From NCBI GenBank assembly GCA_018818505.1, contig JAHIRR010000200.1, forward strand, positions 1-8,482: DNA of 8,482 nucleotides, written 5' to 3'. The DNA is from Candidatus Omnitrophota bacterium. Its GTDB lineage: Bacteria > Omnitrophota > Koll11 > Gorgyraeales > Gorgyraeaceae. Position 1 is the stretch's first letter. Each line of letters starts with the position of its first letter. This document shows positions 1 through 5,177 of the stretch, piece by piece. Below the pieces are notes generated by a model. That model was not told where the DNA came from, did no database searches, and was given only the letters and a program-made list of their open reading frames with translations. Both the position numbers and the translations under genes were made by a program.

Positions 1-110
1 AGATCCTCTATGCTTGAATGAAGGGTATCGATCTCAGAGTTCTTTTCCTGGTTTATCTGTTGCAGTTTAAATTCTTTTTCTTTAATATCTTGTATCTTTT
101 GGTTTAATTG
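1..110. repeat. Left copy of a perfect 110-bp direct repeat (inside coding sequence)
   Basis: Bases 1-110 are identical to 331-440 with no mismatch and are offset by exactly 330 bp (110 codons). Both copies are read in the same frame in the coiled-coil part of the left-edge glycosyltransferase. Identity ends at base 110 on the right; on the left it is cut off by the window edge and probably continues. Confidence 0.97.
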
Positions 111-2663
111 CGTACGAAGGTTTGTAATCTCAGTGATCTTTTCTCTGACTATCTCCTGCGACTGGAATTCTTTATCCTTGATCTCCTGTGTTTTTTGGCT
201 GAGCTCGACATGAAGGCCCTCTATTGTGGAACGCAGGGCAAGGATCTCTGCAGTCTTCTCCTGGTTTTCCTGCTGCAGAAGAAGTTCTTTGCCCTCGGCA
301 TCCTTGGTCTTTCGACTTAACTGACTGTAAAGATCCTCTATGCTTGAATGAAGGGTATCGATCTCAGAGTTCTTTTCCTGGTTTATCTGTTGCAGTTTAA
401 ATTCTTTTTCTTTAATATCTTGTATCTTTTGGTTTAATTGGTTATTTAGATCATCTATGCTGGAGAAAAGATTTATTATCTCGCTGGTCTTTGCCTTATT
501 TAGCTCTTGTAACTGAGATTCTTTATCATTTATTTCCTGTATCTTTTTGTTGAGCTGGATATCAAGCTCCTCTATGGAAGAGAGCAAGCCGGAAACTTGA
601 GCATCCTTTTCAACGATCTGACCGTCTTTTAAAAGTAGTTCATCTGTTTTCTGCCTGAACATATCGTTCATAAGACGAAGTTCTTTTTCTGTGCCTTTAA
701 GGCTTGCTTCCTTATCTAAAAATATCTTTTCTTTGGAACTAAGCTCTTCTATCTTCTGGTCCAGGCTAGTCCTTAGTTCCTTTATAGAGGCGCGAAGTTT
801 ATCTATGTTTAAACAAAGATTTGAAAGCTCTGTATCCTTTTCAATGATCTGGCCGTCCTTTAAAAGGAGCTCGTCTTTTTTAGCTATCAACTCTGTATTA
901 AGCTGGGCAACCTCTTTGGTCAGAGAATCTATCTTGTGTCTTTCCTCAAGAAGCTCCATGTCTTTCAAGGATATCTCCTCTATCGCGCTATTGAGCTGTG
1001 TCTGGAAGGCCTGGATATGGCCAAGCTGGTTGGCAGCCTTTTCTTTTTCTTCCTGGAGCTTTTGTTCGTGGTCTTTTATCTCCTGTGTCTTTTGACTAAG
1101 CTGGTTATGGAGATCCTCTATGATTTTACGAAGATCTGTGATCTCAGCTGCCTTTTCCTGGTTTAGCCCCTGTAGATAGGCCTCTTTGTCTTTGATCTCC
1201 TGTGTCTTTTGGCTGAGCTGGATATAAAGCTCATTCATATTCGAACGAAGGCCAGCTACCTCAGAAACCCTCTCCTGATTCATTTGCTGCAGATGAAGCT
1301 CTTTATCCTGGACCTCCTGCATCTTCTGGCTTAATTGCTCATGAAGCTCGTCTATGTTAAAACGAAGTCGTGTAATCTCAATGCCCTTTTCCTGATTTAT
1401 CTGCTGCAGCTGGAGCTCCTTATTCTTTATCTCCTGCGTCTTTTGACTGAGCTGGTTATTCAACTGGTCTATAGAAAAATTAAGGTCAAATATCTTATTC
1501 TCTTTGGAAGACAATTTTGTGCTGGCGTAGCTGAGCTGTTGATTTAGATGGTAAAGCTGGGCCTCTTTGTTTCTAAGATCCTCTACCTTCTGATGAAGCT
1601 GAGCACTTAACTGTTCCAGATTAGAACGAAACTTAGAGATTTCAATATCCTTATTGGACATGTCTTTAAAGTTCTGACTGAGTTCTTCCTTGCTATTCTT
1701 TAGATCTCCTCCCAGCCTTGACAATTCTTCTAAAATAAATCTGTGCTCGTAATTAAGGACAGTATCTAATTCGACGAATATGTCTTTTATGACCTTCTTG
1801 ACAACAGCCGTATCATTATGTTTCATCAGTTTAGTCACTATATCTGGTAATAGAGAGTACAGTTTCGAAAATGACTCTAAGCCTTTTTTTACAGTAAAAT
1901 ATCCTTGTCCGAAAAGCGAGTTAGAAAGCTTTTCTGGGTTATGCTTGGCCAAGAATAATAATCTATTTTTCTCTATTTGCAATCTTGAAAAATCTCCATC
2001 GCTAGAACCGTGAAATTCATGAAAAACCTCACTCTTTGGGACAAATAATAGTTTCCATCCTTTTTCTCTGAGCCGAACAGCCATGTCAACATCTTCACCG
2101 TATATCACATAGTCTTCATCGAATAACCCTACCTCCTCCAGACAGCTCTTGCGATACAAAGCCACAGCCCCGCATAGACTCTGTACCTCCTCTATTTCAC
2201 TAAAGTTATTTGTTTCAAGTCCAGCCCCGCGTTCTCCCCAGTAAAAATTCGGCAGTCCATAGTGGCCTGCATTCTGAATCTTTCCATCAAAAGTGAGTAC
2301 CTTACTACCTACAGCAGCAATACTGGAGTCTTCACTAATCACTTTGACTAGTTCAATAAGCCAACTCCTAGTCACCTTTGTATCATTGTTTAACAAGACA
2401 ACAAATTCTCCTTTTGCCTTGGTAATCCCTAAGTTAATAGCCTTACAATAATTATTAACGTCATTGACTATAATTCTTACTTCCTCATAGTTCTTCCTGG
2501 CAAACTGCAAGGAATCATCGCTGGAGGCATTATCGACCATAATAATCTCAAACCTATCCTTTGGGTATATGGTCTCCTGCAGAGAATCGAATAACCTCTT
2601 TAAACATTTTTCTCCGTTAAAGTTTACTGTTATAACAGAGATATATGGAGATCTGTTTTCCAT
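1..2663 (-). CDS. GT2 glycosyltransferase fused to a long repetitive coiled coil (3' end outside window)
   Basis: An open frame of 887 codons with no stop runs off the left edge, so the C-terminus is missing. Residues 1-225 form a GT2 (GT-A fold) glycosyltransferase: VDNAS at 43-47, the DXD-equivalent NND at 92-94, CGA at 164-166 and the GEDVD acidic motif at 189-193. It should transfer a sugar from a nucleotide sugar at the cytoplasmic membrane face. Residues about 225-310 are a helical linker. From about 312 to the edge everything is predicted coiled coil rich in Q, E, K, I and L, largely in 39-residue units. The ATG at 2663 shares one base with the preceding stop (TAATG) and has a GGAG Shine-Dalgarno 9 nt upstream. 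By analogy with the WbdD-type coiled-coil rulers of ABC-exported O antigens, it may terminate or measure the chain. That role is inferred, and a scaffold or tether is the alternative. The catalytic domain call is firm. Confidence 0.9.
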   Translation of the reverse strand, partial: MENRSPYISVITVNFNGEKCLKRLFDSLQETIYPKDRFEIIMVDNASSDDSLQFARKNYEEVRIIVNDVNNYCKAINLGITKAKGEFVVLLNNDTKVTRSWLIELVKVISEDSSIAAVGSKVLTFDGKIQNAGHYGLPNFYWGERGAGLETNNFSEIEEVQSLCGAVALYRKSCLEEVGLFDEDYVIYGEDVDMAVRLREKGWKLLFVPKSEVFHEFHGSSDGDFSRLQIEKNRLLFLAKHNPEKLSNSLFGQGYFTVKKGLESFSKLYSLLPDIVTKLMKHNDTAVVKKVIKDIFVELDTVLNYEHRFILEELSRLGGDLKNSKEELSQNFKDMSNKDIEISKFRSNLEQLSAQLHQKVEDLRNKEAQLYHLNQQLSYASTKLSSKENKIFDLNFSIDQLNNQLSQKTQEIKNKELQLQQINQEKGIEITRLRFNIDELHEQLSQKMQEVQDKELHLQQMNQERVSEVAGLRSNMNELYIQLSQKTQEIKDKEAYLQGLNQEKAAEITDLRKIIEDLHNQLSQKTQEIKDHEQKLQEEKEKAANQLGHIQAFQTQLNSAIEEISLKDMELLEERHKIDSLTKEVAQLNTELIAKKDELLLKDGQIIEKDTELSNLCLNIDKLRASIKELRTSLDQKIEELSSKEKIFLDKEASLKGTEKELRLMNDMFRQKTDELLLKDGQIVEKDAQVSGLLSSIEELDIQLNKKIQEINDKESQLQELNKAKTSEIINLFSSIDDLNNQLNQKIQDIKEKEFKLQQINQEKNSEIDTLHSSIEDLYSQLSRKTKDAEGKELLLQQENQEKTAEILALRSTIEGLHVELSQKTQEIKDKEFQSQEIVREKITEITNLRTQLNQKIQDIKEKEFKLQQINQEKNSEIDTLHSSIED
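331..440. repeat. Right copy of the perfect 110-bp direct repeat
   Basis: Identical to bases 1-110. It encodes residues 742-777 of the coiled-coil glycosyltransferase (Q742 to D777). The other 39-residue units in the array are diverged at the DNA level, so the perfect match here points to a recent duplication or gene conversion rather than ancient periodicity. Confidence 0.97.
615..875 (-). repeat. Pair of DELLLKDGQI repeats inside the coiled coil
   Basis: The ten-residue string DELLLKDGQI followed by [IV]EKD occurs at residues 597-606 and 674-683, 77 residues (eleven heptads) apart. The DNA copies (846-875 and 615-644) differ at several third positions, so this duplication is older than the 110-bp one. 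It marks a second, different repeat class in the central segment. Confidence 0.8.
1047..1397 (-). repeat. N-terminal block of three 39-residue coiled-coil units
   Basis: Three consecutive units of exactly 39 residues start at 423, 462 and 501 of the coiled-coil glycosyltransferase. They share the N-Q-E-[KR] opening, the Q-L-S-Q-K-[TM]-Q-E centre and the K-D-[KH]-E end. They match the C-terminal block in protein pattern but are diverged in DNA. A less regular stretch (about residues 540-682) separates the two blocks. Confidence 0.85.
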
Positions 2664-2665
2664 TA
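2661..2665 (-). promoter_or_regulatory. TAATG stop-start overlap
   Basis: The stop codon of the carbohydrate-binding protein (2665-2663) shares its last A with the ATG of the coiled-coil glycosyltransferase (2663-2661), the classic layout for coupled translation. A GGAG Shine-Dalgarno on the minus strand (2676-2673) supports this start as well. Confidence 0.85.
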
Positions 2666-3595
2666 AGGCAAACTCCAGTCCCATGTATGCCCTATATAGG
2701 CCAGTCCATGATAGTTATTTCTACAAACAATCTTAAAACCACATAATCCATTGCGTACCATCAATGGCTTTAAATTAGATCTGTCAAATATCCCTGCAGA
2801 TAATGCATAATCGCCACCCAGCAAAGAAATACAAGGATATGTCAGTGTTATATTCCTGCCCCCACCTAGCATTGTAGTTGCAATATGACAAAGAATAGCA
2901 TCCCTGCGAACAATTGCTATCCTTAGACAATAACCATCTATAGGCCTCTTAAGACCTAAGCGTATATGTAGGGACATGGGTTCTCTGCTCTTAAAGACAT
3001 CCCTTCCTATACCGAACCTGTTAACTGTTTTTACGCTAGAGATATCTATCAAAGTAGATTCAATTTCCTTTTTAAAATCTCCTAAATCCGCCTCCATTGA
3101 CCCGCCTTCAGAAGAAGGCTTCCCACTCCATCTGTGAGGCATATTTAAGGCATGTGCCTTTTCATGGCCCCTTATTGTAAATTCATATCCCCCTGCATGG
3201 TAGCTATATGGCAAGATCTCTTTTTTATCCCAAATCGCCGCAGATATCTTATATCTGCCAGAACCAAGAGGGATGTCTTTAAATTTGATACTAAACCACC
3301 CTGCACCCTTATTAATTGAATCTATTGTAAAACCATCCTGCACAGTATTTGGGCCAAAACAATACAAACCATCTTCCCTGAAAATAGCTACTCCAAAGTG
3401 AGGGCTATCAATAACCTCTCTTACATAAAAATCAACCTTTACGGTAAGGTCTGCGCCGCTATCGATGGAATCAACAATCTTTCCTGATGAATCCAGCAGT
3501 TTAACAGAGGCAATCTCTGCCTCTCTGGTCCCCCATACCTGGCCCCACTCGTCTGTATCTGCCCACCATTTAAGGGTATTTTTTGTAATCGTCAT
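2663..3595 (-). CDS. Stand-alone Wzt C-terminal-type carbohydrate-binding protein, two tandem domains
   Basis: This 310-residue soluble protein has no signal peptide. It contains two copies of the beta-sandwich domain normally found at the C-terminus of Wzt exporter ATPases. Domain 1 (about 20-155) shows the WGTREAEI opening, FGVAIFREDG at 68-76, a G-x-Y strand near 113-115 and a closing HRW at 154-156. Domain 2 (about 183-306) is more diverged: RIAIVRRD at 225-232, GGDYALSAGIFD at 260-271 and a closing HTW at 303-305. In E. coli O8/O9a this module recognises the modified non-reducing end of the finished polysaccharide and licenses export. A similar role here is inferred. The ATG directly follows the ATPase stop, in the same frame and with no Shine-Dalgarno, so translation probably depends on reinitiation or readthrough. 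Tandem copies and a separate polypeptide are both departures from the usual single fused domain. Confidence 0.85.
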   Translation of the reverse strand: MTITKNTLKWWADTDEWGQVWGTREAEIASVKLLDSSGKIVDSIDSGADLTVKVDFYVREVIDSPHFGVAIFREDGLYCFGPNTVQDGFTIDSINKGAGWFSIKFKDIPLGSGRYKISAAIWDKKEILPYSYHAGGYEFTIRGHEKAHALNMPHRWSGKPSSEGGSMEADLGDFKKEIESTLIDISSVKTVNRFGIGRDVFKSREPMSLHIRLGLKRPIDGYCLRIAIVRRDAILCHIATTMLGGGRNITLTYPCISLLGGDYALSAGIFDRSNLKPLMVRNGLCGFKIVCRNNYHGLAYIGHTWDWSLP

Positions 3596-3598
3596 TTA
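3593..3598 (-). promoter_or_regulatory. In-frame TAA-ATG junction splitting Wzt into two proteins
   Basis: The ATPase ends in TAA (3598-3596) and the very next codon in the same frame is ATG (3595-3593), opening the tandem binding-domain gene. No Shine-Dalgarno lies at a usable distance; an AGAGG sits about 18 nt upstream. Slipping at the A-rich run just before the stop leads to prompt stops in the other two frames, so only reinitiation or stop readthrough would supply the second protein. Confidence 0.85.
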
Positions 3599-4381
3599 TT
3601 GATTTTTTGAAAACCTCTTTTCGCTTGCCAGTCTTCTATAGAAGGCATTTACCTCTGCAGGTTCTCCCTTACGCACTAATCTGCCATTTTCTAAAAGATA
3701 GGCCTCGTCGCATATCCTCTCGATTATGTCTAAATCATGAGTACTTATAAGCATTGTTTTTTTCTTGCGCTTAAAATCAATTATCTTCTCATAGCATCTC
3801 TTTTGAAAAGATAGGTCCCCTACAGAAATGACCTCGTCTATGAGCAGGATATCGAAATCCACGTGTATTGCTATGCTAAAAGCCAGCCTGAGCTGCATGC
3901 CTTGAGAAAAAGACTGGACTGGAATATCCATAAAGTCCTTTAATTCTGAAAATTCTATGATACTGTCGAGCTTTTCTCTGATCTCACCTCTGCTCATGCC
4001 CAGGATAAGGCCGTTTAAAAATATATTCTCCTTGGCTGAAAGCTCTGATTTAAATCCAGCCCCCAGCGAAAGGATGCTCGATGCCCTGCCATCTATGCCC
4101 ACCCTGCCTTCAGTCGGAGCAAATATGCCGGCAAGGATATTAAGGAGGGTTGTCTTGCCTGAACCATTCCTGCCTATGATCCCTACTATCCTTCCCTTTT
4201 CCACCTCCATATCTATATTCTTTAAGGCCCAGTATTCTTCTGTATTGTTTCCGGATAACCTGGGAAACAGGCTTTCTGAATGACCTAACAGCCTGAAGGC
4301 CTTGCCTACCTTCTCGAGCCTTACCATCTTACGGCCATTGTCACCTTGTTTATTGTAAAGATTTATTATTTTTTTAAACAT
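3596..4381 (-). CDS. wzt: Polysaccharide ABC exporter ATPase (Wzt-like, lacking its C-terminal domain)
   Basis: Numbered from the ATG at 4381: Walker A GRNGSGKTT at 70-78, a Q-loop-region G-F-K-S-E-L-S segment typical of this family, signature FSQGM at 158-162, Walker B plus D-loop ILLIDEVISVGD at 178-189 and the H-loop histidine of STHD at 215. The E-N-I-x-L-N-G segment is typical of O-antigen and teichoic acid exporters. The protein powers export through the permease encoded just upstream. It stops soon after the ATPase domain, where a typical Wzt would continue into its carbohydrate-binding domain; that domain follows as the next codon after the stop. The start is uncertain. The frame is open up to a TTG at 4417, the ATG at 4381 overlaps the permease stop by 8 nt, and an ATG at 4327 (MVRLEKVGKAF) best matches where the family usually begins. 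Confidence 0.92.
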   Translation of the reverse strand: MFKKIINLYNKQGDNGRKMVRLEKVGKAFRLLGHSESLFPRLSGNNTEEYWALKNIDMEVEKGRIVGIIGRNGSGKTTLLNILAGIFAPTEGRVGIDGRASSILSLGAGFKSELSAKENIFLNGLILGMSRGEIREKLDSIIEFSELKDFMDIPVQSFSQGMQLRLAFSIAIHVDFDILLIDEVISVGDLSFQKRCYEKIIDFKRKKKTMLISTHDLDIIERICDEAYLLENGRLVRKGEPAEVNAFYRRLASEKRFSKNQ

Positions 4382-5177
4382 GGTCTGCAAATCCCGGCGC
4401 AAGCCTTTTAAAAACAAATATACCGAGCAATAAAACTCCTATGCTGCATATAACAGGCCAGACTGTTATATTATAAAGGCAAACCTCTTCTGGAAGGGTC
4501 TGTATAAAGCCTTTTATCAAAACAATCCTGTATAAGCTTACCAGCCCAACAAAAGGATTGAGCATGTACAGCGTTAAAAAACCCTTTGAAAAATTAAGGA
4601 CCAGATCAAGAGGATAAAAGGCTGGTGTCAGGTAAAAAAGTATCAATAAAACAATCTCGGCCAAATACTTTATATCGCGAAGCTTCACATATAGGCTTGA
4701 AAAAAGCAATGAAAACCCTATTGTAAAAGATATCTGCATTAGCATTACTAAAGGCAGCAGGAATATAAAAAATGAATACTTGATCTTTAGAAGCGGCAGG
4801 GCAATAAGCAGTAAGGCCATAAAAATAAAAAAGTTTACCAGATTTGATAATATAATAGAGAAAGGAATGATGCTGCGGGGAAAATAGACCTTCTTTATCA
4901 GGCTCCCGTTATCCAGGATAGATGTGGTGGCCTGGATCACGGAACTCTGAAAAAATGTCCATGGAAATATCCCTGTAATTAAATACACGCTGTAAGGGAT
5001 ATCCTTTACCTCTACCCTTATTATCTTGGAAAATACCACCAGAAAAATAGTCATGAGTGCCAAAGGCATTAAGATCGCCCACAGGAATCCCAGGACAGGA
5101 TACCTGTATCTGGATTCTATATCCTTTACAGCCAACTCCCACACCAATTCACGATTTTTAAATATTTCGCTCCACAT
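4374..5177 (-). CDS. wzm: ABC-2 type polysaccharide exporter permease (Wzm-like)
   Basis: A 267-residue membrane protein, the usual length for this family, with six predicted membrane segments at about 31-52, 63-81, 103-130, 134-162, 171-190 and 238-256. Family hallmarks are the RYRYPVLGFLW motif before the first segment, GIFPWTFFQSS after it, KKVYFPRSI in the cytoplasmic loop, KLRDIKY before segment five and the TPAFYP turn. It forms the transmembrane channel that moves undecaprenyl-linked polysaccharide across the inner membrane, paired with the ATPase encoded immediately downstream. The start ATG lies one base after the stop of the upstream glycosyltransferase. There is no clear Shine-Dalgarno, so coupled translation is likely. 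Adjacency with the Wzt-like ATPase makes the assignment firm; the sugar exported cannot be read from the sequence. Confidence 0.93.
   Translation of the reverse strand: MWSEIFKNRELVWELAVKDIESRYRYPVLGFLWAILMPLALMTIFLVVFSKIIRVEVKDIPYSVYLITGIFPWTFFQSSVIQATTSILDNGSLIKKVYFPRSIIPFSIILSNLVNFFIFMALLLIALPLLKIKYSFFIFLLPLVMLMQISFTIGFSLLFSSLYVKLRDIKYLAEIVLLILFYLTPAFYPLDLVLNFSKGFLTLYMLNPFVGLVSLYRIVLIKGFIQTLPEEVCLYNITVWPVICSIGVLLLGIFVFKRLAPGFADHV

Follow-up and report, generated by a model that had tools for sequence, protein, structure and literature searches.

The window, by which we mean the whole stretch of 8,482 nucleotides of a Candidatus Omnitrophota bacterium analysed here, carries a tight minus-strand operon encoding a GT4-type glycosyltransferase, a radical SAM/SPASM protein, a family 2 glycosyltransferase (GT2), an ABC-2 permease, an ABC ATPase, a tandem Wzt_C protein and a GT2 with a coiled coil. 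The features of the exporter part of the operon are given in Table 1.

Table 1 Exporter genes, domains and junction in the window
Feature	Position	Strand	Details
Family 2 glycosyltransferase, long coiled-coil tail	3..2684	-	PF00535 E 4.9e-24; runs open at window end; alternative start 2663 (TAATG)
Stand-alone protein, two tandem Wzt_C domains, 310 aa	2663..3595	-	PF14524, AlphaFold2 model, relatives
Second Wzt_C-like domain, more diverged	2666..3061	-	
First Wzt_C / carbohydrate-binding domain	3137..3535	-	
Stop-start junction TAA/ATG	3593..3598	-	TAA 3596-3598, ATG 3593-3595; gap 0, frame common to both ORFs
Exporter ATPase (Wzt nucleotide-binding domain only), 261 aa	3596..4381	-	ATG 4379-4381; PF00005 E 7.9e-22; database copy P0024, 261 aa
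ABC-2 permease (Wzm)	4374..5177	-	PF01061 E 4.7e-14; 8-nt overlap with ATPase start

The ORF downstream of the ATPase matches PF14524 with an E value of 2.1e-35 (122.3 bits against a cut-off of 30.4) and two separate stretches of it match at E 0.001 or better. Its AlphaFold2 model (mean pLDDT 89.2) has two strand-rich domains, the first of which matches the fold of Wzt carbohydrate-binding domains (CBDs), and a Pfam scan of the other six window proteins found no Wzt_C domain. When the ATPase was compared with NCBIfam the top three of 189 similarities were to teichoic-acid exporter (TagH) and galactan Wzt/RfbE models, all well under cut-off. Among the features by which we recognise such an exporter, an ABC-2 permease adjoining the ATPase, an ATPase near Wzt/TagH-type subunits and a Wzt_C domain were found; a Wzt_C domain on the ATPase chain itself was not, as a TAA separates the two, and the pair was therefore classed as a split variant that would work like a CBD-dependent Wzm/Wzt exporter and not as a plain member. 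At the other end of the operon (window positions 1-1460) the coiled-coil tail is made of repeats of about 117 bases, with positions 1-110 and 331-440 identical over 110 bases, a possible slip site for assembly.

The first-pass annotation had placed the ATPase and Wzt_C ORFs in one frame with the stop directly abutting the start, and this was confirmed, the minus strand reading ...TCA AAA AAT CAA TAA/ATG ACG ATT... from the ATPase end into the Wzt_C gene. The gaps at the six junctions of the operon are +17, -4, +1, -8, 0 and -22 nt, the last being -1 (TAATG) if the final gene uses its second Met. Spacing of 0 nt is unremarkable here because abutting or overlapping borders are the rule in this operon. 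Only the ATPase/Wzt_C junction of the six is in frame, the chance of a common frame being 1 in 3. Translation through the stop would give a hypothetical product of about 572 residues, close to the 580 or so of the annotation. The sole Shine-Dalgarno-like stretch, AGAGG, ends 18 nt upstream of the Wzt_C gene ATG, a distance that is compatible with coupling, but weak expression of this gene could be its consequence.

Relatives of the two proteins and their loci

A first search with the Wzt_C protein, which covered proteins up to about 540 aa, gave 23 matches, namely the window's own protein, 20 that stand alone, a partial one and, as the only fused form, P0023 (528 aa). The nearest relative, P0002, is 76% identical, has the same length of 310 aa and starts at the same Met (MTITK as in the window); the longest contig carrying it is 18,309 bases. 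Another protein, P0020 (356 aa), whose N-terminal stretch resembles the ATPase tail of fused proteins, may come from a truncated fused gene. As this search excluded proteins over about 540 aa it was repeated with a query of read-through length, carrying X at the stop and scoring the C part only, which admits both fused and stand-alone lengths. The repeat search returned 35 matches, 17 stand-alone, 17 fused and one with another N-terminal domain, and is itself incomplete, P0002 lying below its length limit and P0003 (321 aa, 48%) and P0011 (316 aa, 41%) being in range yet absent. The top 12 of the 35 matches are all stand-alone (313-333 aa, 218-322 bits). The best-ranked fused match is 39% identical across 98% of the query, and the fused P0156 reaches 49% over half of the query only.

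The ATPase was searched separately in proteins up to about 450 aa. Among the best 120 of 5,967 matches the stand-alone P0025-P0047 (228-262 aa) are 52-72% identical to it, and two-domain proteins rank below them at 53% or less. The 24 stand-alone ATPases P0024-P0047 (P0024 being the window's own) and that of locus L060 stop 9-17 residues past profile position 240, whereas at this point most of the fused proteins continue through a linker of 18-25 residues; the exceptions among the fused forms are three loci of other phyla (3-5 residues), L033 and L040 (36-37) and L039 (26). The break in the window falls in the interdomain linker, as had been proposed, and a read-through linker here would have 20 residues. 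The closest stand-alone relatives are judged to be split by their predicted protein ends.

Scanning a species-genome collection gave 44 loci, 39 of them assigned to Omnitrophota by their taxonomy or record title, and in 43 of the 44 the ATPase and Wzt_C lie in one frame, L001 being the sole split locus. The Wzt_C protein matches 71 of 384 same-phylum genomes at E 0.001, two of them, G080 and the L001 genome G001, carrying the split, genomes without a retrieved locus being classed by frame length alone. A single fused gene is the majority form among the other Omnitrophota loci found. In L001 (DeMMO3_15) the last 11 nt of the ATPase frame overlap the start of the second gene, which is in another frame, and on a 1.26 Mb contig of G080 the two genes of L060 meet in an ATGA overlap, again out of frame. 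The two genes of each pair are in different frames, therefore readthrough is unable to fuse them there. The comparison of homologues that had been proposed thus found the window's start kept in P0002 and the split kept in L001 and L060, but with overlapping genes that are out of frame.

The order permease, ATPase, Wzt_C, GT2 is common to the window, L001 and L078 (G080). In 34 of the 43 fused loci the permease and fused Wzt are followed by a GT2, which in L008 sits behind a radical SAM-Wzt_C gene; no adjoining GT2 was found in the other nine, and in at least two of these (L034, L044) the contig ends there. The gene in L008 (6268-8184, plus strand), beside the fused Wzt, is a 638 aa frame with a radical SAM domain and a weak SPASM joined to a tandem Wzt_C pair; a radical SAM/SPASM gene is also present in the operon of the window. 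In L030 a second, stand-alone tandem Wzt_C frame (3533-4606, plus strand) overlaps the end of the fused Wzt gene, and P0154, the protein with another N-terminal domain, has 453 aa with CARDB and then a tandem Wzt_C pair.

Searches for further split genomes by gene order and by class gave, by frame length, only G001 and G080 again. Short Wzt_C frames in G129, G279 and G111 were rejected as fused genes truncated at a contig end, and G330:C88 as the second half of a Wzt_C pair straight after a transposase-like frame. G122 has a 143 aa frame near a contig end. Among viral contigs there were 42 pattern matches, none of them a relative. L081 (1146-2911, plus strand) contains a transposase-like frame, then a 202 aa frame with the later part of the Wzt_C pair only, then a GT2 with a coiled-coil-like tail, the transposase and coiled-coil calls being made by eye.

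Phylogeny of the split

With a view to following the history of the split, trees were built from the ATPase, the C domains and both parts concatenated, omitting repeated loci, the three loci L041-L043, which belong to other phyla, and L012, which is nearly identical to L013. The ATPase rows include 43 from the best 120 of 5,967 matches, P0024 and P0047 entering as the window and L001. The full ATPase tree has 107 rows, and a 67-row version, rooted on 29 fused rows, omits 40 of these (14 single-Wzt_C, 7 ATPase-only outside the split group and 19 fused). In the 67-row tree the 25 split rows kept fall in one group of 35 rows (83/86), within which 10 fused rows are nested (100/98). A minimum of two changes is required, a single change being seen in none of 200 bootstrap trees, and read simply this tree would imply one fission and one re-fusion; a topology with all split rows in one clade was not rejected by an AU test (p 0.438). 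The 107-row tree requires 6 changes, partly because the 7 ATPase-only rows lie outside the split group.

The C-domain tree, with 88 of 104 C rows (the 14 single-Wzt_C rows, L037 and L044 being omitted), requires 5 changes between 25 stand-alone and 60 fused rows, with P0020, P0154 and the radical SAM fusion of L008 uncounted. Here P0021, P0160 and P0162, all stand-alone, group together (99) amid fused rows, possibly through another fission or extra copies. For the concatenated tree 8 short or long-branch fused rows were omitted, which left 53 fused rows beside 9 split pairs, and it requires 3 changes. In six of the nine pairs ATPase and C protein were put together on the ground that the longest contigs of their two protein clusters are equally long, a circumstantial match. 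The number of changes required differs from tree to tree (2, 6, 5 or 3) and, a single split clade not being rejected, there may have been one or several fission or re-fusion events. The neighbourhood of the window is all split in each tree, with 9 rows at 97/92 in the 67-row ATPase tree, 6 at 100 in the C-domain tree and 6 at 95/90 in the concatenated tree.

Origin and function of the separate Wzt_C protein

Both frames of the pair are intact, the nearest relatives are also split and the type and frame of the junction vary among relatives. From these comparisons of sequence the junction is best read as a natural and inherited split of Wzt, as the first-pass annotation had allowed, and not as a fresh nonsense change. 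We consider it very probable that the window encodes an Omnitrophota-like Wzm/Wzt exporter whose Wzt is made up of two proteins, the ATPase and a substrate-binding protein with tandem Wzt_C domains, taking the explanation as a whole with fission, re-initiation and docking. Fission of a fused double-Wzt_C gene would have given rise to the split, ribosomes ending the ATPase would re-initiate at the abutting ATG and so translate the second gene, and the binding protein would dock on the ATPase dimer and pass on the finished polysaccharide, performing in trans the role that the linked domain has elsewhere.

Many ABC-transporter gene pairs are classed as translationally coupled in PMC3711429, the sign being a start and stop within 10 nt. 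The criterion applied here was a downstream start no more than 10 nt from the upstream stop that is retained in relatives; in the split loci with DNA the distance is 0 nt in the window, an ATGA in L060 and an 11-nt overlap, just outside 10 nt, in L001. In passages of PMC9445017 and PMC6379404 a CBD-truncated Wzt together with a separately expressed CBD restores transport, and isolated CBDs are jelly-roll dimers. The statement in the earlier annotation that Wzt domains work as separate polypeptides is borne out by these passages, neither of which ties it to E. coli O9a. The Wzt_C protein of the window is probably made by coupled re-initiation and probably acts in trans, like such engineered parts. 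In Aquifex aeolicus, according to PMC9445017, the CBD dimer touches one NBD only and there is a single binding pocket, which lies between a CBD and an NBD that belong to one Wzt chain, and therefore a split pair would have to meet by docking alone. It is conceivable, though we think it rather unlikely, that the free tandem Wzt_C protein by analogy replaces the CBD dimer within a single chain, which would provide both jelly-rolls and dock on one ATPase of the pair. If so, unlinking would allow the cell to adjust the amounts of exporter and receptor independently, or to exchange one receptor for another, and fusion and fission would both be reachable in evolution.

Leaky readthrough of the TAA, which had also been suggested, would yield a minor fused ATPase alongside the short one. 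It would fit the common frame and the normal length of the resulting linker, but the frames differ in both split relatives with DNA, so that no such product is conserved, and the junction resembles the other abutting gene borders of the operon; we found no support for it and regard it as improbable. Much the same low probability attaches to a stand-alone Wzt_C protein that no longer serves the exporter and has another role, for example glycan binding for the neighbouring glycosyltransferase. Wzt_C pairs are indeed joined elsewhere to radical SAM (L008) and CARDB (P0154), but the place of the protein between ATPase and GT2 is retained in the window, L001 and L078, and no other scanned window protein matches Wzt_C. 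Least likely of all, to the point of being very nearly dismissed, is a fresh one-base nonsense change or sequencing error within a fused gene, which would suit a single stop as the sole separation of two ORFs in a common frame, a read-through linker normal for fused relatives and the predominance of fused genes among the loci found, but is contradicted by the identical gene start and length of the 76% relative, by the ATPase relatives at 52-72% (among the best 120 of 5,967 matches) that terminate here too and by the genomes of L001 and L060, which hold the split out of frame.

As a natural split of Wzt, the pair would be a case shared among relatives of a possibility shown in the laboratory, namely an O-antigen-type exporter whose substrate receptor functions without being attached to it. 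With fused Wzt forms also present in the phylum and in the same operon setting, receptors that are linked can be compared with those that are not. None of this alters how such exporters are understood. The ATP-hydrolysing and sugar-recognising parts of these surface-polysaccharide exporters are usually one protein, and their split here is unusual yet fits existing knowledge.

Comparison with known systems

No natural split Wzt appears in the titles and abstract openings of the literature searched, most subscription papers being outside reach, and an earlier description is possible, for example in the 2019 survey by Mann, Kimber and Whitfield of how CBMs are organised, which is cited in PMC11231755. 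In the WzmWzt of A. aeolicus (PDB 8dku, 7k2t; isolated CBD 8dky, 6o14), as described in PMC9445017, Wzt is fused into one chain and carries only one CBD. The window differs in having two chains and two tandem Wzt_C domains. For the Wzt CBDs of PDB 5hno, 5hnp and 2r5o, which we take to be from Raoultella/Klebsiella O12 and E. coli, the separation is lab-made, whereas that of the window is natural and common to relatives.

The fused double-Wzt_C Wzt proteins of Omnitrophota (e.g. L002-L007) resemble the window in their domains and operon neighbours but, unlike it, are encoded in one frame, and their whole C part is at most 39% identical to that of the window, with segments of the first domain alone reaching 48-49% (P0156, L044, G403). 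In L001 and L060/L078 (G080), too, the ATPase and the Wzt_C protein are encoded by two genes, arranged as in the window; their genes overlap in different frames whereas those of the window abut in one frame, and the second domain of the G080 protein, unlike that of the window, gives no separate Pfam match at E 0.001.
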